DNA of 64,000 bases. It comes from Verrucomicrobiaceae bacterium (GTDB lineage Bacteria; Pseudomonadota; Gammaproteobacteria; Pseudomonadales; CAMLJR01). The DNA is taken from NCBI GenBank assembly GCA_028293825.1, contig JAQGNY010000053.1, positions 124,001 through 188,000 on the forward strand, written 5' to 3'. The notes below the pieces were generated by a model, which worked only from the letters and a program-made list of their open reading frames with translations, did not search any database and was not told where the DNA came from. A program made the translations under genes and the position numbers. Positions 4,962 to 48,803 of this stretch are shown one piece after another; within the stretch, counting starts at the first letter, position 1, and every line of letters starts with the position of its first letter.

Positions 4962-5095
4962 GCGAAAACCTCGTGAAGACTGTTGCAATACAGGCAGTCG
5001 CGGCGGGACTAAAGCAGCGTGCCGCAGCGCTCAAAAGCGGCGGCCATGATACCATAGCGCCCCCGTTTTCCCGGCCAGACTGCACGGAGTTTCCG

Positions 5096-6325
5096 ATGGC
5101 GAAGACCTCGCTCGACAAAAGCAAAATCAAATTTCTCTTGCTGGAAGGCGTGAGCCAAACCGCCATAGATAATTTGCAGGCCGCCGGTTATTCGAATATC
5201 GAGTACCACAAAAAAGCACTGCCTGAAGCCGAATTGAAAGCGGCGATCCGCAATGCGCATTTCGTCGGCATTCGCTCGCGCTCGCAATTGACGCGCGACG
5301 TATTCGAAGCGGCGGAAAAACTGATCGCGGTCGGCTGTTTTTGCATCGGCACCAATCAAGTGGATTTGCGCGCGGCGATCGAGCACGGCGTGGTCGTTTT
5401 CAACGCGCCGTATTCGAACACGCGCAGCGTTGCCGAACTCGTCATCGCCGAAGCGATTTTATTGTTGCGCCGTATCGCGGAAAAAAATGCGGCGGCGCAT
5501 CGCGGCGAATGGCAGAAAAATGCCGATGGCGCGTATGAGATTCGCGGCAAGACGCTCGGCATCATCGGTTACGGCAGCATCGGCATGCAGTTGTCGGTGA
5601 TCGCCGAATCGCTCGGCATGAAGGTGTGCTTCGTCGATGTCGTCGCCAAATTGCCGCTGGGCAACGCGGTGCAGAAAGGCTCGCTCGATGAATTACTCGC
5701 GTGCTCGGACATCGTCACGCTGCATGTGCCGGAAATTGCATCGACTAAAAACATGTTCGGCGCGCGCGAAATTGCGGCGATGAAACCCGGCGCTATTTTA
5801 ATCAATGCCTCGCGCGGCACCGTGGTCGATATCGACGCGCTGGCGGCGGCATTGGAAAGCAAACATATCGGCGGCGCCGCTATCGATGTGTTCCCGGTCG
5901 AGCCGCGTTCGAACGACGACGAATTTATTTCGCCGCTGCGCAAATTCGACAATGTATTTTTAACGCCGCATATCGGCGGCTCGACGCAGGAAGCGCAGGA
6001 AAATATCGGTCTGGAGGTGGCGGAAAAATTGGTGCGCTACAGCGATACCGGCACCACGACCACTTCGGTGAATTTTCCGGAAGTCGCGCTGCCCTCGCAT
6101 CCCGGCAAGCATCGTCTGCTGCACGTGCATAAAAATATTCCAGGCGTGATGACGGCGATCAACAAAGTATTTTCCGACAACAGCATCAATATCAGCGCGC
6201 AGTATCTGCAAACCAACGAGCATGTCGGCTACGTGGTGATGGATGTCGATCAGGCGTATAGCGAATTGGCGTTGGAAAAATTACTGCAAGTCAGCGGCAC
6301 GATTAGCTGCCGCGTTTTATTCTGA
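5096..6325 (+). CDS. serA: D-3-phosphoglycerate dehydrogenase SerA
   Basis: First committed step of L-serine synthesis: oxidises 3-phosphoglycerate to 3-phosphohydroxypyruvate with NAD. The ATG at 5096 follows CACGGAG and gives 409 aa, one residue shorter than E. coli SerA. Visible parts are the Rossmann fold IIGYGSIGMQLSV, the catalytic His292 in LTPHIGGSTQ (same number as E. coli), and a C-terminal ACT domain (HVHKNIPGVMTAIN) that binds L-serine for feedback inhibition in this type. The gene is divergent from the FAD-linked dehydrogenase at 3549-4961 and ends in a strong terminator. Confidence 0.97.
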   Translation: MAKTSLDKSKIKFLLLEGVSQTAIDNLQAAGYSNIEYHKKALPEAELKAAIRNAHFVGIRSRSQLTRDVFEAAEKLIAVGCFCIGTNQVDLRAAIEHGVVVFNAPYSNTRSVAELVIAEAILLLRRIAEKNAAAHRGEWQKNADGAYEIRGKTLGIIGYGSIGMQLSVIAESLGMKVCFVDVVAKLPLGNAVQKGSLDELLACSDIVTLHVPEIASTKNMFGAREIAAMKPGAILINASRGTVVDIDALAAALESKHIGGAAIDVFPVEPRSNDDEFISPLRKFDNVFLTPHIGGSTQEAQENIGLEVAEKLVRYSDTGTTTTSVNFPEVALPSHPGKHRLLHVHKNIPGVMTAINKVFSDNSINISAQYLQTNEHVGYVVMDVDQAYSELALEKLLQVSGTISCRVLF

Positions 6326-39479: not shown

Positions 39480-40130
39480 TTATTGTTGTGGCCGAATCTC
39501 GATCAGATGCCGTTGGCCGACTACACCCGGCACATTCAGCGCGTGGCAGGCGTCGACTCTATAGTGCGCCGGCAAGGCCTGCAATTCGTCGTCCGGAAGT
39601 GTGCCTTTAAGTGCGAGCAACACGCCATCGGTATCCAGCAGATGCGCGCAACCATCCGCCATATCGTGCAGCGATGCAAACGCGCGCGATAGCACCGCAG
39701 CGTATTTTTGTTGCGGCTGCAGCGTTTCAACCCGGCCCTGAATAGCGCGGACGTTACTAAGTTGCAGCTCGGCAATTGCTTGCGTGACGAATCGAATTTT
39801 TTTGCCGTTGCTATCGATCAGATCGAATTGTTTATCGGGAAACGCAATCGCCAACGGAATTCCCGGCAAACCGGCGCCGGTGCCGACATCGGCAAAACGC
39901 TCGCCGCGAATAAACGGCACTATCGCCAAACTGTCGAGGAAATGGCGCGCAATCATTTCGGCCGGATCGCGCACCGCAGTCAGGTTGTACGCGCGGTTCC
40001 ATTTTTGTAGCAGCGCCAAATATTGCAGCAGTTGTTCGACAGCGGACGACGGCAGCGTTAATTGCAACGCGTCGATACCGCTCTGTAATTGTTCGCGATA
40101 TGACACGTCAGTGGTGGCCGTGGAATTCAA
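39480..40130 (-). CDS. rsmG: 16S rRNA (guanine527-N7)-methyltransferase RsmG
   Basis: SAM-dependent methylation of G527 in 16S rRNA, 216 aa. [17 protein letters not shown] binds [13 protein letters not shown] and [10 protein letters not shown] are family motifs. Its start overlaps mnmG by 4 bp (translationally coupled). Confidence 0.97.
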
Positions 40131-42013
40131 GCGCTTTTGCGGTCGAGCAGGCCGCGCTTTTTTAAATAGATGAGTAACAGCGACACCGCCGCCGCCGTGA
40201 CGCCAGGCGTACGCGATGCCTGCGCCAGCGTTTCCGGCTTGGCGTTATTCAATTTCTGTTTGACTTCGTTGGACAGTCCTTCGACGCCGGTGAAATCAAG
40301 ATCCAGCGGCAGGCGCATATTTTCGTAATGGCGCAGCCGCGAAATTTCTTCGGCCTGGCGCTCGATATAACCGGCGTATTTGATTTGAATCTCGACCTGC
40401 TCGGCGACTTGCGGGTCGGTCGCGGCCGTGCCTTTCAGCGTGGAGATATCGGCGTAGCTCAGCTCGGGGCGTTTCAGTAAATCGTGCAGGCTGTATTCGT
40501 GCGTCAGCGGCAGTTCGAGTAGCGGCAGCAATTGCGCCGCCTCGGCCGAATTCGGCTGAATCCATGTGCTGGCGAGACGCTGTTGTTCGCGCTCGATGGC
40601 TTCGCGTTTTTCGCAGAACTGGCGCCAGCGTTCGTCGTCGATCAAACCGAGTTTGCGGCCCTGCTCGGTCAGACGCAGATCGGCATTGTCCTCGCGCAGC
40701 AGCAACCGGTATTCGGCGCGCGACGTGAACATGCGATATGGCTCGCGCGTGCCGAGTGTAATCAAATCGTCGACCATCACGCCGATATACGCTTCGTCGC
40801 GACGCGGCGACCACGCATCGCGCTCCAATGCTTGCAAACCGGCGTTGATACCGGCCAGCAAACCCTGCGATGCCGCTTCTTCGTAGCCGGTGGTGCCGTT
40901 GATTTGGCCGGCGAAGAACAGGCCTTTCAGATAACGTGTTTCCAGCGAATGCAACAAATCCTGCGGGTTGAAATAATCGTATTCGATGGCGTAGCCGGGG
41001 CGCGTGATGTGCGCGTTTTCGAAGCCTTTGATCGAGCGCACCAACGCCAATTGCACATCGAACGGCAGGCTGGTGGAAATGCCGTTCGGATACAGTTCGT
41101 GCGTGTTCAGGCCTTCCGGTTCGATGAAAATCTGGTGCGAACCCTTGTCGGCGAAGCGATGGATTTTGTCTTCAATCGACGGGCAGTAGCGCGGACCAAT
41201 GCCTTCGATCACGCCGGTATACATCGGTGAGCGGTCGAGACCGCCGCGAATAATTTCATGGGTCTGCGCGTTGGTATGCGTCATCCAGCAGCAGGTCTGC
41301 TCGGGATGTTCCGCCGCCGAGCCGAGAAAACTCATCACCGGCACCGGCGTGTCGCCCCACTGCTGCTGCAGGCCGTCGAAGTTTACCGAGCGCGAGTCAA
41401 TCCGCGGCGGTGTGCCGGTTTTTAATCGATCGACGCGCAATGGCAATTCGCGCAGACGCTGCGCCAACGCGATCGAGGGCGGATCGCCAGCGCGGCCGCC
41501 AGAATGATTATCTAGGCCGATATGAATTTTGCCGCCTAGGAAAGTCCCGGCGCACAACACCACGGTTTTGGCGAAAAAGCGGATGCCGGTCTGCGTTACC
41601 GCGCCGAGCACGCGCTCGCCTTCGACGATCAGATCGTCAACCGCCTGTTGAAAAATGGTGAGATTCGGCTGGTTTTCGAGAATCGCGCGGATCGCCGCTT
41701 TGTACAAAATCCGATCGGCCTGGGCGCGTGTAGCCCGCACCGCCGGGCCTTTGCTGTTGTTCAATACGCGAAATTGAATACCGCCGCGATCGGTGGCGGT
41801 GGCCATGGCGCCGCCCAGCGCGTCGACTTCCTTGACTAGGTGGCTTTTGCCGATGCCGCCGATGGCCGGATTGCACGACATTTGGCCGAGCGTTTCGACG
41901 TTGTGGGTCAGCAACAGCGTTTGGCAGCCGAGCCGAGCCGCAGCCAGGCACGCCTCGGTGCCGGCATGGCCGCCGCCGATCACGATAACGTCAAAGCGCT
42001 GTGGATAATCCAT
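40127..42013 (-). CDS. mnmG: tRNA uridine-5-carboxymethylaminomethyl modification enzyme MnmG (GidA)
   Basis: FAD-dependent partner of MnmE in forming mnm5/cmnm5 on wobble U34, 628 aa. N-terminal FAD fold [43 protein letters not shown] is the signature. Here it is separated from mnmE by a 5-kb insertion. Confidence 0.98.
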
Positions 42014-42519
42014 CGCCGCGTACCTGAAAAGTCTGGTGGGAAAAGGCCGCCGATTATACGGCGACGGCTTCGATGCGCAAGGAGTTGTTGAATTTTTCGT
42101 CAGAGGGTTTTGTTAATGTTATTAATTAAATATTTAATGGTTTAGAGATAGATATATAACAGTAATGTAGTAATTATTAGGGTCCGCTAAATCTGTTTAA
42201 AAGTCTATTTAACTTATATTTTTCAAATAATTAGGTTAATGATAACCGACGGGAAATACGCTTGGCCCAACCTGTATGACAGGGCTAATTGATGTGGATA
42301 GAAAAGCTGTCGCCAATGATCGAAGCCAAAGTTGCCGGGCATTTTTGCTAGTTTCCAATGGACTGTGCACAGATCTATGCATTGACATTGCCCACAGTCA
42401 GCCATAGTTTTCGATAACGGCATTAAGTGCTGTATTAGCTGTGCATAACTTCCGCACAAGATGTGATTAACCCTGTTGAATTGAATTTCAGACGGTTGCA
42501 TCGACCGCGATGATTAAAG
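42014..42519. other. AT-rich spacer with E. coli-like oriC layout
   Basis: Next to mnmG (gidA), as E. coli oriC. An AT-rich tract (about 42110-42240) lies on the mnmG side, then DnaA-like boxes: 42440-42448 (complement reads TTATGCACA, fits TTATNCACA), 42293-42301 (CTATCCACA, one mismatch) and weaker 42363 (CTGTGCACA). GATC sites at 42318 and 42371. The 92-codon minus frame here shows no family. A fossil or secondary origin is possible; evidence is thin. Confidence 0.4.
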
Positions 42520-44412
42520 CTAGGAATTGGGCTGCAGCCAGCGCTGCATTTTTTCGCGCAGAATTTGCATCGTCACCGGCTTGCTCAGATAGTCGTTCAT
42601 GCCGGCGGCAAGACACCTTTCGCGATCTTCAATCATTGCATTGGCGGTTAACGCGACGATCGGAATGGTCGCTAATGCCTGCCGCTCGTCGCGTCTAATT
42701 CGCTGCGTGGTTTGGTAGCCGTCCATTTCCGGCATCTGGCAATCCATCAGGATCAAATCGAACGGATGCTGTTCGAGTATTTCCAGCGCCTCGATACCGT
42801 TGTTAGCCGACTTCACTTGCAGGCCCATGCTTTCGAGCATGTTGCACACCACCATCTGATTGATGGCGTTGTCTTCGACGATCAGCACATTGGCTTTGGG
42901 CAATGGTAGTGGCACATCGGTTTTCAGTTCGCGTGAGGCATTGTTGCGCGCATTGGTACTGAACTTAACGCGGAAGGTCGAACCGCGGCCCGGTGCGCTG
43001 CTCAGATCGATGGTGGCATTCATCAACTCGCATAACTTCTGCACGATGGCCAACCCGAGACCCGAGCCGCCGAAGCGGCGCACGGTCGAGCCATCGGCCT
43101 GACGGAACGGCTGAAATATCAGTTTCTGTTTATCCGGTGGAATGCCGATGCCGGTATCGACCACGGCCAACTCCACGCTCAGCGATTGCTCGTCGTTCCA
43201 TTCGCAATGTGTGAGCAATTGCACGGAGCCGGCGAAGGTGAATTTCAATGCATTGCCGAGCAGGTTGACGATGATCTGCCGCAGCCGCGCCGGATCGACC
43301 AGGATGCGCACTTCGCGCAATTTGTCGTCGATTTGGGTGTGCAAGGTCAGATGCTTTTGCTGCGCGGTCAGGCTAAACGAATTAACGATCTGTTCGAGCA
43401 AGGTGCCGACATCGACATAAATCGGTTCGAGCTGCATAAGGCCGCGTTCGATGCGCGAAAAATCCAACACGTCGTTGACGACGGTCAATAGATGTTCGGT
43501 CGAATCGATGGCGATGCCGACGTACTGCGTTTGCTGCGGATCGAGCGCGGTGTATTTCAACAACTCGAGCATGCCGAGCGCGCCGTTCATCGGCGTGCGC
43601 AATTCATGACTCATCGTGGCCAGAAATTCGCTTTTGGCGTCGTTGGCTTGTTCGGCGGCGATGCGGGCCTGTTCTAACTGCTGCAAATTTTCCTGTAAAC
43701 GCGCCTGGCTTTTTCCGAGTGCCACGGCCATCTGGTTGACCGCGTTTTGCAGAATGCCGATTTCGCCGATGCCGTTTTCGACCACCCGCACCGATAGGTC
43801 GCCGCTGGCGATAGTGACGGTGGTGTCGGTCAATGCGCTGATTGGCCGCGCCAGTCGTTTACCCAAGAACCACACCAGGCCGATGCCGAGCAATAACATC
43901 GGCGTGCCGACTAACGCGCTGATCGCAATCGCATGGTTGCGGCTGGCATTGATGCCGCGTCGCGACAGAGCGATTTCAATATGGCCGATCGATGTGCCGG
44001 CGTGAAGATTGGCGTCGTCGCTGGCGAGCTGATCTTCAACCGCGATCGGTTCCATTTTGATATCGGAATTAAAGACATCGACATTTTGTGCGAGCGGTGT
44101 ATTGCCGATGGTAACCAACAAATGTTGATTGGCGTCCCACACGCGAATGGTGGCCACAGGGTCGTTAATCGAGCGCATTAACAGCGTGCGCAGCTGTTCC
44201 TGATTTCCGGTTAATACCGCGAACTCGCTCGCCACGGCCAATTGATTGACGAGTAGATTGCCGTGTTCGTGTTGCATGTTTTCTTGATCGTTGAGACGCG
44301 CGCTCAACAAAAAACTAAATATGACAATGTATAAGCCCAGCATTGGCAATGTGCTGAGCAACACGATTTGCTGCGCAATTTTTAGCGTTTTCCAATTCGA
44401 TTTAACAACCAT
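42520..44412 (-). CDS. Hybrid sensor histidine kinase/response regulator
   Basis: 630 aa inner-membrane sensor. Two membrane helices (about 16-38 and 163-183) bound a periplasmic domain of ~125 residues; then HAMP ([15 protein letters not shown]), HisKA with His269 in [15 protein letters not shown], HATPase_c ([23 protein letters not shown]) and a C-terminal receiver with the phospho-acceptor Asp in [12 protein letters not shown]. BarA-like overall. The ATG at 44412 has GGGGGAG at 7 bp and overlaps the end of the upstream gene. Third gene of an operon with a binding protein and a TonB-dependent receptor, so it may sense the imported ligand. No output-domain protein is adjacent. Confidence 0.92.
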
Positions 44413-45319
44413 CGCCACACTCCCCCACTTGATTCTGCAACCGTGCGGTCAGTGTTTTTTCGTCCTGGACGGCAAGTCCTAATGAAGCGGCAACTTGCGG
44501 ATTTATCGCCACGCGATACGCGCGCGGGTATTGCGGTCGCGGCAATTTTTGGCTGCGTAGAAATACGCCGACCATTTCTACCAGTTGCTGCATGTATTGA
44601 TCGGGTGCGGTGTAACACGAAGCGAGACTGCCGGCGCTGACAAAGCTGCGCGCTGGGCCGATGAGAAATTTTCCGCGACGATATGTCGTCAATAAAATAC
44701 TGCGGATGGTATCGGCGTTGTAAATGGTGGCGTCGTCGACACCGAGCAGTACGTCGCTGTCCAACATGAGCTGCGATAAATATTTTGGCCAATCGATTTT
44801 ATCTTCGATATCGATGGTTTGAATTTCAAGTTTGCTGCTGCGTTCGAGTTCCGCGAGTGGCTGCGGTAGATTGCGATGACCGGTGACAATGCCGACATGA
44901 TGCAAATTTGGCATCAACATTTTCGCCAGTTGAAGTTGTCGTGCTAACGGTTGATCGCGATACAGTGCGGTGACTTTGTCATCGTTGCGCAAATGAGCCA
45001 GATAAGCAGTGGAACTCACATAAAATGCCAACGTCGCCGCGTAATTATTTTTTTCGGTGGCGAGCCATGGCAATAAATTATCGCTTAGTGCAATAAGCAA
45101 AGTGTTTTGGGTATCGCTACTATTTTTGTTATCGGCGGTGCGGATATTTACCGGAATGGCTGCTGACTGTTGTAGCGCGTGCTGAATACCGCCGGCTAAA
45201 TCAGCCAGTGCGGCGTTGTCCGCTGGGATTACGACATCGATACGGGCGATGACTGCTTCGCCGCTTGCCGGTAAACACACCGGCAACCACAGCAGCAAAA
45301 TTAAAAACATCCGTTTCAA
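44402..45319 (-). CDS. ABC_sub_bind-type periplasmic protein
   Basis: 305 aa with a signal peptide ([17 protein letters not shown]). The rest resembles the PF04392 ABC transporter substrate-binding family (two alpha/beta lobes; [15 protein letters not shown], then [20 protein letters not shown]). No ABC permease or ATPase is nearby, so it probably feeds the sensor kinase rather than a transporter. Overlaps the kinase start by 11 bp. A CxxxxC at the end (GECGDGC) is unusual. Confidence 0.8.
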
Positions 45320-45345
45320 GTTTTCATTCCTTTGTTCCTTAAGTC

Positions 45346-47298
45346 CTAAAAACTCAAATCTACGGACACTAGGAAACGGTTGGGACTGTCATAAGTATTA
45401 TCAGTAAAATAATCCGAATATTTATAGAAATAATGTTGGACAGCGGCGCTCACCGATAAGTTATTCGTGAACAACCGCAACTGTTTGGTAATGCGCGAAT
45501 CCCAACGCGATAATTTGGTGGCGTTAACTGGGTACGCAAAATAATAAAACGAAGACAACGACAGACCATCGCCCAGTGCGTACATTATTCCCGCACTGCC
45601 GGCGTGACGCGGCGTCAGCGTTTGTTCGTTGTAGGCATTGGCGATATCGGTGGATGACGAAGCGTGCGAATTAATTTGCGCATAGTTGATGTGAATGTGC
45701 AGCGGTTCGATCGGATGAATATTTAATTCAGTTTCAAAACCGGTTTGATTCAGCGACGTACTGTTGGTCGGTATCAGGTTCGCATTGGTTAAATTTTCGC
45801 TGATCAAATGCGTTAAGTCGTCATTAAATATTTTCGCGTCGAGTTCGAGCGCACCGCCGAACCACAGTCCGTAGTAACCGAATTCGCGCGAACGAATGTG
45901 TTCTTCAGTCAAGTCGCCTAACGATTTTTTAAACGGTCTTATGAACGGGTCCGGAATTAAATTGGGCGGTGAAATTTTAGTCGCGGTGTAATTCCAATTT
46001 AAATTATTTTCGTAAAGATCCGGCGTGCGTATCGCTTCGGAATAAACGAGACGGAAGGTCTGCGTTTTATCGGGTGCAAACAATAATGCGAGGCGCGGTG
46101 AAAAATCCGAGCCGCCGTGTTCCTGCTTTTCTTCGGAGCCCGCAATGGTTGCCGTCCATTGCGGTAAAAAGCGGTATTCGAAATTGCCGAATAATTGATA
46201 ACTGTTCAGATCGATGGTGCCGGCGTAAAACGTTTGCGAATCGACGTGCTTGCGTTGGAAGTGCGTGCCGGTAACCAGCTTCACGTCTTTGCTGCTGAGC
46301 CACGTATCCTGCAAATCGAAATCAACACGGGTGTTTTGCGAGTTGTCGTTGATATCGCCGCAAATAATTACGCCGAAATTTTCGCAGGTGCGATATTCGG
46401 ATACGTACTGTGTGCGCGAATAATCCAGCTGCCACTTTATTGAATTTTTATCCGATAAAAAAACCTGCGAATTAACACTGCCGTAATAATCCTTCACCCA
46501 GATGTCGGGCGGGATGACATTTGGGGGGTTGAGATCATCGGTTTTAATACCGTTCTTGTAGCCGAATTGAAAGCCGATGTTCCAGCTGTCGGCGGGCGTC
46601 AGCAACCAACGCCCGTTAATAAAATGCGCGTCTTTCGAATCGTTGCGCTCGTCGCCGCGCTGACGTGTGTCGAAACCGTTATCGCGGCGTTTCCCCAATG
46701 TCACGCGATAACTCGAATCCTGCAAATTGCCGGACGTGGACGCGTAATAATTTTCGGTGCCACTGGAACCGTAAGTGGCTTTCACGCGCAGACGTGCGCT
46801 GTCGTCCGGGTGCTTGGTGATGATGTTGATAATGCCGAGAAAGGCATTGGCTCCGTACGCGGCGGTGTCGGGTCCGCGCGTTACTTCGATGCGTTCAATA
46901 TCTTCGATCGCAATCGGAATGTCGCTCCACTCGATGGTCGCGAGACCCGCTTGGTACACCGAGCGGCCATCGATCAACACTTGCATGCGGCGACTGTTGC
47001 GCCGATTGGTGCCGTGGTAACTGACCACGTAATCCCAACCGGAACGCGCGCTGACCACCATGCCGGGCACCAGGCGCAACAATTCTGGCAGCTCGCGCAC
47101 GCCGGCAGCGGCGATAAGTTCGTGATCGATAACAGTGACGCTGGCGGGAACTTCGGTGCGCGGTTGTTTCAGGCGCACCGGCGTCAACACTTCCGGCACC
47201 GGAATCGATTCGAGTTGGGAGTCGTCGAGGTCGGCGCCGTAACTCGGAGCAGTCAGCGAAAATGAAACAACAGCAGTGAGGGCTAATGACTTTCGCAT
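45346..47298 (-). CDS. TonB-dependent outer-membrane receptor
   Basis: 650 aa. Signal peptide (ALTAVVSFSLTAPSYGAD), plug domain (PASVTVIDHELIAAAGVREL, ...VLIDGRSVYQAGLATIEW, IERIEVTRGPDTAAYGANA) and a beta-barrel ending in FLVSVDLSF with terminal Phe. The plug type resembles colicin-I/vitamin-B12-like receptors. No riboswitch or Fur box was seen upstream, so ligand is open. First gene of the operon with the binding protein and hybrid kinase. Confidence 0.93.
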   Translation of the reverse strand: MRKSLALTAVVSFSLTAPSYGADLDDSQLESIPVPEVLTPVRLKQPRTEVPASVTVIDHELIAAAGVRELPELLRLVPGMVVSARSGWDYVVSYHGTNRRNSRRMQVLIDGRSVYQAGLATIEWSDIPIAIEDIERIEVTRGPDTAAYGANAFLGIINIITKHPDDSARLRVKATYGSSGTENYYASTSGNLQDSSYRVTLGKRRDNGFDTRQRGDERNDSKDAHFINGRWLLTPADSWNIGFQFGYKNGIKTDDLNPPNVIPPDIWVKDYYGSVNSQVFLSDKNSIKWQLDYSRTQYVSEYRTCENFGVIICGDINDNSQNTRVDFDLQDTWLSSKDVKLVTGTHFQRKHVDSQTFYAGTIDLNSYQLFGNFEYRFLPQWTATIAGSEEKQEHGGSDFSPRLALLFAPDKTQTFRLVYSEAIRTPDLYENNLNWNYTATKISPPNLIPDPFIRPFKKSLGDLTEEHIRSREFGYYGLWFGGALELDAKIFNDDLTHLISENLTNANLIPTNSTSLNQTGFETELNIHPIEPLHIHINYAQINSHASSSTDIANAYNEQTLTPRHAGSAGIMYALGDGLSLSSFYYFAYPVNATKLSRWDSRITKQLRLFTNNLSVSAAVQHYFYKYSDYFTDNTYDSPNRFLVSVDLSF

Positions 47299-47435: not shown

Positions 47436-48803
47436 TTATTTGCCGATACAGAAACTCGAAAATATATGGCCGAGCAAATCGTCCGCGCTGACCGCGCCGG
47501 TGATTTCGCCAAGCGCAATTTGCGACAGCCGCAGATTTTCCGCGACCAACTCACCGGCGCTGTTGTTCAATTCGCGCTGGGCTGTTTGCAAAAAGTTGAG
47601 TGCGCGTTGCAGCGCATCGATGTGGCGGCGCCGCGCCAGAAAAGTATCTTCGTTATTGTTTTGATAGCCGACGCTGGTTTTCAAATGCTGGCGCAGCAGA
47701 TCGATACCGGCGCCGGTTTTCGCGCTGAGTGTAATAACGGTAGGCACGCCGTCTTTTTTATCGATCGGCTGATGCGACAGGTCGCATTTGTTGCGCACAT
47801 GCGTCACCGGTTTATCGCGTAAATTCGCGGCGATATCGGCCGGCACCAATGCGCTAAGTTCAACTGTTAGAGCGAGCTGGCTGTCGCTGACCAATAAAAT
47901 ATGATCGGCGTTTTCGATTTCTTTCAGCGCGCGCCGAATGCCCTCGCGCTCCACTTCGTCGGCGCTGTCGCGCAGGCCGGCGGTATCGATGATATGCAGC
48001 GGCAAGCCGTCGATTTGAATATGTTCGCGCAGCACGTCGCGGGTAGTGCCGGCGATGGGCGTGACGATGGCGCTGTCTTTGCCGGCCAGCGCGTTCAATA
48101 AACTGGATTTGCCGGCGTTCGGCGCACCGGCGATCACAATCGTCATGCCTTCGCGCAGTAGCGCGCCTTGATTGGCGCTGCGCAAAATCGTTTCGAGTTG
48201 TTCTAACAGCTTGGATATGTCGCCGGCGATTTTGCCCTCGCCGAGAAAATCGATTTCTTCATCGGGAAAGTCGATAGCCGCTTCGACATAAATGCGCAGC
48301 TGTGTCAGCTGCTGCACTAGGCCGTTAATTTGCGCACTGAATTGACCTTGCAGCGAACGCAACGCCGAGCGCGCCGCTTGCTCGGAAGCGCTGTCGATCA
48401 GATCGGCAATCGCTTCGGCCTGGGCCAGGTCGATTTTGTCGTTCAGAAATGCGCGCTCGCTAAACTCGCCGGCGCGCGCCAGACGTGCGCCGAGTCGAAT
48501 AATTTCACGCAGCAGGCAGTCGAGAATGACGGGGCCGCCATGGCCTTGTAGTTCGAGCACATCTTCGCCGGTGAACGAATGCGGGCCGGGAAAATAAAGC
48601 GCGATGCCTTGATCGAGAACTTGCGGTTCGGCGCTGCGCTCGAAGAAGCTGCCGTAATGCGCAACGCGCGGCGTTAATTCCTTGCCGACGACGCTGGCCA
48701 TCACCGCCCGCGCGAGTGGACCAGAGATGCGGACAATGCCAACACCGCCGCGACCGGGTGGCGTAGCGATGGCGGCGATGGTGTCAGTGCTGAGAGTCGA
48801 CAT
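47436..48803 (-). CDS. mnmE: tRNA modification GTPase MnmE (TrmE)
   Basis: Partner of MnmG in wobble-uridine modification, 455 aa. N-terminal formyl-THF-binding domain, G domain ([25 protein letters not shown]), C-terminal CIGK that carries the essential Cys. Its usual partner gene mnmG lies 5.4 kb downstream rather than adjacent. Confidence 0.98.

Follow-up and report, generated by a model that had tools for sequence, protein, structure and literature searches.

A recurrent gene trio encoding a TonB-dependent receptor, a TrpX-like binding protein and a GacS/BarA-group sensor kinase, a probable three-part receptor system

The window, i.e. the whole 64,000-nucleotide stretch of DNA that was analysed (assembly GCA_028293825.1, contig JAQGNY010000053.1, positions 124,001 to 188,000), includes genes for a TonB-dependent receptor (TBDR), a periplasmic binding protein (SBP) and a BarA-like hybrid sensor kinase between mnmE and mnmG. 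Together, the TBDR, SBP and sensor probably constitute one receptor system, with a kinase that belongs to the GacS/BarA group. This reading draws on gene order, conservation, protein folds, swapping of the cytoplasmic output, the identity of the locus in other genomes and the kinase tree. We infer from it an imported ligand, a contact between SBP and sensor and a target for the window kinase. The TBDR would let a molecule excluded by porins into the periplasm, where the SBP, which has no ABC transporter, would bind it. Once loaded, the SBP would contact the kinase at its small Cache domain and thereby switch it. The cytoplasmic output would be exchangeable (a hybrid kinase, a kinase with an Hpt domain, or a diguanylate cyclase), and the window kinase would pass its signal to the Hpt domain of GacS and to GacA, as RetS and LadS do in Pseudomonas. 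The features of the locus, in window positions, are as follows.

47436..48803, minus strand: mnmE, upstream neighbour given for context (open reading frame, ORF)
45346..47298, minus strand: TBDR, 650 residues, Plug and beta-barrel (Pfam)
44402..45319, minus strand: SBP, 305 residues, PF04392/TrpX-like, start codon TTG (Pfam, AlphaFold, Foldseek)
42520..44418, minus strand: BarA-like hybrid sensor kinase, 632 residues, without Hpt (Pfam, NCBIfam)
44104..44298, minus strand: sCache_4 periplasmic sensor domain, kinase residues 41-105 (Pfam, 30.6 bits, cut-off 22.1)
43717..43869, minus strand: HAMP domain, kinase residues 184-234 (Pfam)
43441..43638, minus strand: HisKA phospho-acceptor domain, kinase residues 261-326 (Pfam)
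42958..43296, minus strand: HATPase_c domain, kinase residues 375-487 (Pfam)
42547..42888, minus strand: receiver domain, kinase residues 511-624 (Pfam)
40127..42013, minus strand: mnmG, downstream neighbour given for context (ORF)

A gap of 26 nucleotides separates the TBDR and SBP genes, and the SBP and kinase genes overlap by 17 nucleotides, all on one strand. This confirms the packing of a TBDR, an ABC_sub_bind-like SBP and a BarA-like kinase that an earlier note on this DNA had described. Pfam detected a Plug domain (from residue 48) and the barrel in the TBDR, no STN domain, and no Hpt domain in the kinase. Against a profile of trio TBDRs, which was built in part from the window TBDR itself, the window TBDR scored 671 bits, compared with at most 108 bits for seven other TBDRs in the genome. 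Promoter and terminator scans gave nothing beyond the level of shuffled sequence. An ORF of 92 residues between the kinase gene and mnmG (42223-42501, minus strand) had no Pfam match over cut-off and is probably not a gene.

Conservation of the trio was assessed in three sets of loci. The window SBP as query found a match in 36 of 115 relatives (order set), and a profile of 35 SBP homologues found one in 115 of 369 genomes of the class. The sets comprised 37 loci of the order (36 and the window), the best 60 class loci, and 80 named loci out of at least 547 relatives from one scan of genome contigs; the named and class sets overlap by at least six loci. Undibacterium, Sulfuricella and Methylotenera are among the named carriers. 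Twenty weak class matches, distant relatives within PF04392, served as the control. In the tally, counted by profile coordinates with the window included (177 loci), the gene next to that of the SBP codes for a protein carrying the same N-terminal sensor at 167 loci (31/37 in the order, 57/60 in the class and 79/80 among the named loci), and a same-strand TBDR lies near the SBP at 150 (31/37, 48/60 and 71/80, respectively), as compared with 3 of 20 weak controls. The co-occurrence of the three families envisaged by the earlier note was thereby borne out, and their homologues are not always separate.

No gene with an ABC ATPase signature was found within 1.5 kb on the same strand at any of the 97 order and class SBP loci, versus 5 of the 20 controls, in agreement with the description of a binding protein without a transporter. 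The genome from which the window comes has four BPD_transp_2 permeases, arranged as two pairs and located on contigs other than that of the window. The 97 SBPs retrieve nearly all of one another by BLASTP. Distances among the TBDRs, SBPs and sensors correlate at 0.85-0.89 (122 loci), values that still include shared species descent, and the SBP-sensor correlation did not exceed 0.09 in 500 permutations.

Viewed in this window alone, where the site is unusual and the gene families are common, the trio could be taken for chance neighbours or for genes hitch-hiking in an operon at a permissive mnmE-mnmG site. That account is scarcely credible, since the 177-locus tally rules out chance neighbourhood and the trio recurs at unrelated sites, two Massilia plasmids among them. 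Three SBPs were found on plasmids and none in a search of phages. The two Massilia clusters (L329:2036-8245 and L331:1865-8094) encode in a row a response regulator, a CPBP intramembrane protease, the TBDR, the SBP, which is annotated as 'hypothetical protein', and a HAMP kinase; they are flanked by partition and conjugation genes, and the plasmids are mobilizable.

The adjacency of mnmE and mnmG, taken in the earlier note to be usual, holds in part. Thirty loci were fetched out of 55 genomes in which mnmG had a match, and in 18 of the 30 no more than 1.5 kb separates mnmE from mnmG. The remaining 12 are arranged otherwise: the trio kinase takes the place of mnmE beside mnmG in three (the window's own genome, G001 and G024), and neither gene is found there in nine. 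Genome G063 also carries the trio between mnmE and mnmG. This placement is a detail of four genomes among those surveyed.

The gene content around the trio varies. Same-strand ORFs of 170-200 residues without a Pfam match recur 5' of the TBDR gene and were considered as a fixed fourth gene; they run antisense to a divergent cysM, with which they overlap, and were rejected as shadow ORFs. Further same-strand neighbours (ruvA, ruvB, an exonuclease, AI-2E and DUF4349) differ by lineage. Two tandem SBP genes lie between the TBDR and kinase genes in one locus (L052:7959-9811), and two TBDRs are in tandem in another (L061). A distant PF04392 group (L180, L181, L185, L191 and L194) has shorter kinases (538-544 residues) and a convergent TBDR, and this layout is a second arrangement of the same parts.

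The window SBP scored 22.8 bits against PF04392, under the curated Pfam threshold of 25.9, and 25 of 35 members of the SBP family match PF04392 at E≤0.1. An AlphaFold model built from 62 sequences (mean predicted local distance difference test score, pLDDT, 90.9; predicted TM-score 0.86) gave a complete two-lobed binding protein. Its best Foldseek match was Streptococcus pneumoniae TrpX with L-Trp (3lft; E 4e-13, TM-score 0.60); CD0873 (6hnj, TM-score 0.67) and 3lkv were also matched, the latter also being found by a profile search at E 2e-21. As modelled, the SBP is a divergent relative of PF04392 rather than a member, with a TrpX-like type I periplasmic-binding fold.

The window kinase scored 415.8 bits against the NCBIfam BarA model NF008318, which bears out its designation as BarA-like, though at a score under the cut-off of 890. 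For the AlphaFold model of its sensor (pLDDT 87.3), WalK and a LapD-like domain were nearest in Foldseek, and a profile from 60 SBP-linked sensors found the periplasmic domain of GacS (5o7j) at E 3.6e-14.

These folds bear on an account in which the SBP binds no ligand and serves as a brake or scaffold. On that view it is a relict binding protein that keeps the sensor inactive until envelope stress releases the sensor, and the TBDR is merely co-transcribed. The LapD-like and WalK-like folds near the sensor model act via protein partners, and conservation is poor in the first lobe of the SBP, the PF04392 match beginning only at residue 114. The complete two-lobed model of the SBP, together with retention of the TBDR in 150 of 177 loci, points instead to an imported ligand and makes a brake or scaffold quite improbable.

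Exchange of the cytoplasmic output also bears on the role of the SBP. Forty loci of the 177-locus tally (4 class and 36 named) have a GGDEF protein next to the SBP, and these proteins match the kinase profile only over about the first 257 of its 644 positions, which correspond to the membrane sensor and HAMP domain. Switches between kinase and GGDEF output number at least eight on the SBP tree and at least five on the sensor tree (FastTree, 158 loci). A NarL-type regulator is found within the cluster in 28 of 177 loci (10 order, 12 class and 6 named). The constant set consists of receptor, binding protein and sensor, and the output varies. Swapping of the output behind a constant SBP and sensor favours the SBP as the sensor input. 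The chain of outer-membrane import and periplasmic sensing suggested in the earlier note, with the SBP as input, is partly supported by adjacency, the lack of an ABC partner beside the SBP and output swapping; the import, the ligand and the SBP-sensor contact are putative parts of it. In one locus, a receiver-GGDEF protein is encoded directly after the SBP-linked kinase (L258:10568-11503), and an ORF of similar size is found downstream of the SBP-linked kinase in two others (L259 and L261).

Outside the window's order, the trio is often found at the gac locus. The divergent gene next to the trio is of one family in 25 loci and is named cysM by NCBIfam in an example (L125), in which the other neighbours of the trio are rlmD and pdxJ. 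Genes that flank gac (cysM, rlmD or relA upstream and/or pdxJ, recO or era downstream) were found at the trio in 31 of 60 class loci, in 14 of them on both sides, and in 15 of 80 named loci. None were found in the 37 loci of the window's order: there were four matches there to the era query alone, and these were taken for the related GTPase Der. Stand-alone GacS/BarA kinases adjoin the same genes; the order in E. coli K-12 is relA-rlmD-barA.

Full-length matches to the BarA model of at least 500 bits were found in 65 of 369 class genomes, and the best one is directly adjacent to the SBP in 39 of these 65. A strong SBP (E≤1.3e-44) is present in 70 genomes; 39 of them have a BarA match, and the adjacent kinase is the best match in all 39. 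An unlinked BarA match occurs in 28 genomes, only two of which (G245 and G412) have a strong SBP, each also with a linked kinase. As this survey scored only two candidates per genome, additional copies may have escaped it. Two SBP-adjacent kinases exceed the BarA cut-off of 890 bits (G432, 919.6 bits; G334, 907.5 bits). The position at the gac locus and the BarA-model matches beside the SBP suggest that a TBDR and an SBP are encoded alongside many GacS/BarA orthologues. Beyond what the earlier note had claimed, the trio appears elsewhere to occupy the gac locus with a GacS/BarA orthologue as its third gene, and as judged by sequence the trio kinase at that locus in many other bacteria appears to be this orthologue.

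In the kinase trees (FastTree, 159 rows; IQ-TREE, 105 rows), stand-alone GacS/BarA kinases are interleaved with long SBP-linked kinases, with six changes. A single clade of stand-alone kinases was rejected by the approximately unbiased (AU) test (p-AU 0.00086; 58 chosen rows including E. coli BarA, LG+G4, L355 left out).

A different account is that the kinase detects a small molecule directly with its Cache domain and induces the TBDR and SBP, whose only task would be to scavenge and store a nutrient. Sensor domains of the same fold do bind ligands directly, and according to excerpts of PMC8639471 and PMC5595915, no SBP is involved in sensing by stand-alone GacS and BarA. Such scavenging would lack a permease to take the ligand onward, and the SBP stays with the sensor when a diguanylate cyclase replaces the kinase. 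Further information comes from the sensor pocket site of E. coli BarA Thr98, which was placed over GacS His97 after the excerpted PMC8639471; GacS signalling requires His97 (PMC5595915, in part), and BarA orthologues are themselves divided by the Thr98 position (PMC8639471, in part). His occupies this site in 16 of 27 stand-alone kinases and is outside the eight commonest residues in 48 long and 25 short SBP-linked kinases. The pattern would be expected if stand-alone kinases sense directly and linked ones are fed by the SBP; as it follows clades, it is only suggestive. Overall, direct sensing with mere scavenging is considered unlikely.

In the kinase tree, 18 short kinases of the window's order form a clade that includes the window kinase, its nearest relatives being those of L040 and L041, which also lie at the mnmE-mnmG site. 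Four genomes (G000, G001, G024 and G063) have short kinases alongside a stand-alone GacS, and in four others (G067, G073, G077 and G106) the best BarA match is a long SBP-linked kinase. The window's own genome encodes a stand-alone GacS-like kinase of 922 residues, with 724 bits to the BarA model, between recO and cysM-relA (rnc, era, recO and relA near it were named by reading translations); no TBDR or SBP was found within 1.5 kb of it. The window kinase is a short Hpt-less paralogue that has no regulator of its own and coexists with a stand-alone GacS.

The same genome has 13 Hpt profile matches and a GacA/UvrY-family regulator that scores over its cut-off. A dedicated regulator was considered and rejected, the best matches to the cluster-linked NarL-type regulators being the GacA/UvrY-family protein and one encoded after another kinase. 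The GacA/UvrY-family protein is a candidate for the unlinked target regulator that the earlier note had in mind, and this genome yielded nothing more closely related to the cluster-linked regulators. The Hpt matches, this regulator and the lack of a closer relative make the Gac pathway the most likely target; that the window kinase does feed it, through the GacS Hpt and GacA, is by analogy conceivable, albeit doubtful.

In a broader view, GacS/BarA in much of the Gammaproteobacteria may be a three-part receptor fed by a TBDR and a TrpX-like SBP. The stand-alone forms of Pseudomonas and E. coli would then be reduced, having lost the partners and taken up direct sensing, and the window kinase would be a side branch that informs the Gac network of a molecule imported by the TBDR. 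This proposal is put forward tentatively, as a serious possibility that falls somewhat short of probable.

Several findings weigh against these readings. To our knowledge, no SBP or TBDR partner takes part in signalling by E. coli BarA or P. aeruginosa GacS. A direct response of BarA to acetate has been reported (excerpts of PMC8639471). Among the full-length matches, the BarA cut-off is passed by only 2 of the 39 beside an SBP and by 2 of the 28 unlinked ones; this cut-off does not separate linked from unlinked kinases, because the stand-alone GacS of the window's own genome also fails it. The root of the kinase tree is not fixed, an outgroup of five other hybrid kinases being scattered. Eleven of the 20 distant PF04392 relatives also adjoin such a kinase, so the SBP-kinase pairing is not special to this subfamily. 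By the tally rules, 27 of the 177 loci have no nearby TBDR and 10 have no sensor protein. Among the latter, a TBDR intervenes and the kinase follows in L057, the kinase lies upstream in L161, and L060 is at a contig edge; L074 has a HAMP-GGDEF-EAL protein with a non-matching sensor beside the SBP, and L163, L176 and L247 have no sensor protein. Three loci of one genus (L070, L071 and L073) have a TBDR and SBP but no kinase. Finally, the sister species G001 (L039) keeps the SBP and kinase at the mnmE-mnmG site with no TBDR there, mnmE and the SBP gene being just 207 nucleotides apart, and no close TBDR relative was found elsewhere in this genome, which is 89% complete.

In L070, a prephenate dehydratase gene (5076-5942) precedes the TBDR and SBP genes, and an ORF of 288 residues precedes the TBDR gene in L071 and L073. 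This neighbour is a possible hint at an aromatic ligand, or reflects mere descent.

The trio resembles the GacS/BarA systems (Gac/Rsm and BarA/UvrY) in sensor type, domain order and BarA-model score, and in other genomes shares their chromosomal site between pdxJ/recO and cysM/rlmD. It differs in that its kinases, here and in many genomes, are encoded behind a TBDR and an SBP, and the window copy has no Hpt and lies at another site. LuxP-LuxQ and TorT-TorS likewise have a type I binding protein without a permease beside a hybrid kinase; the trio adds a TBDR, its SBP is of the PF04392/TrpX type and its sensor is of the sCache_4 type rather than the LuxQ or TorS type, and the LuxQ and TorS models match the window kinase through the kinase core only. 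Activation of kinases by SBPs is known; in 10 of the 11 SBP-kinase couples that have been characterised, the two genes lie side by side (PMC11113362, in part). NspS-MbaA has an SBP beside a membrane cyclic di-GMP enzyme (GGDEF-EAL), like the 40 GGDEF variants. It differs from the trio in having no TBDR. NspS belongs to another SBP family. RetS and LadS, auxiliary hybrid kinases of the Gac system, have the role that is proposed by analogy for the Hpt-less window kinase beside a stand-alone GacS, and differ from it in their sensor domains (excerpts of PMC7695008). FecA-type transducers also tie a TBDR to signalling; the trio TBDR has no STN domain and has an SBP and a kinase as partners rather than an anti-sigma factor. 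No publication joining a TBDR, an SBP and a GacS/BarA-type sensor was found in a search of the open-access literature, subscription papers being mostly outside it, and 'TonB' occurs 0 times in the accessible text of PMC7695008, PMC8639471 and PMC5595915.

What GacS senses is a recognised open question, and the ligands of its sensor remain unknown according to excerpts of a review (PMC7695008). If GacS/BarA orthologues do share their loci with an SBP and a TBDR, the signal could be sought by ligand screening of the soluble SBP in bacteria in which the partners persist. An outer-membrane receptor would then supply a sensor kinase via a binding protein, with an output that is interchangeable between phosphorelay and cyclic di-GMP.

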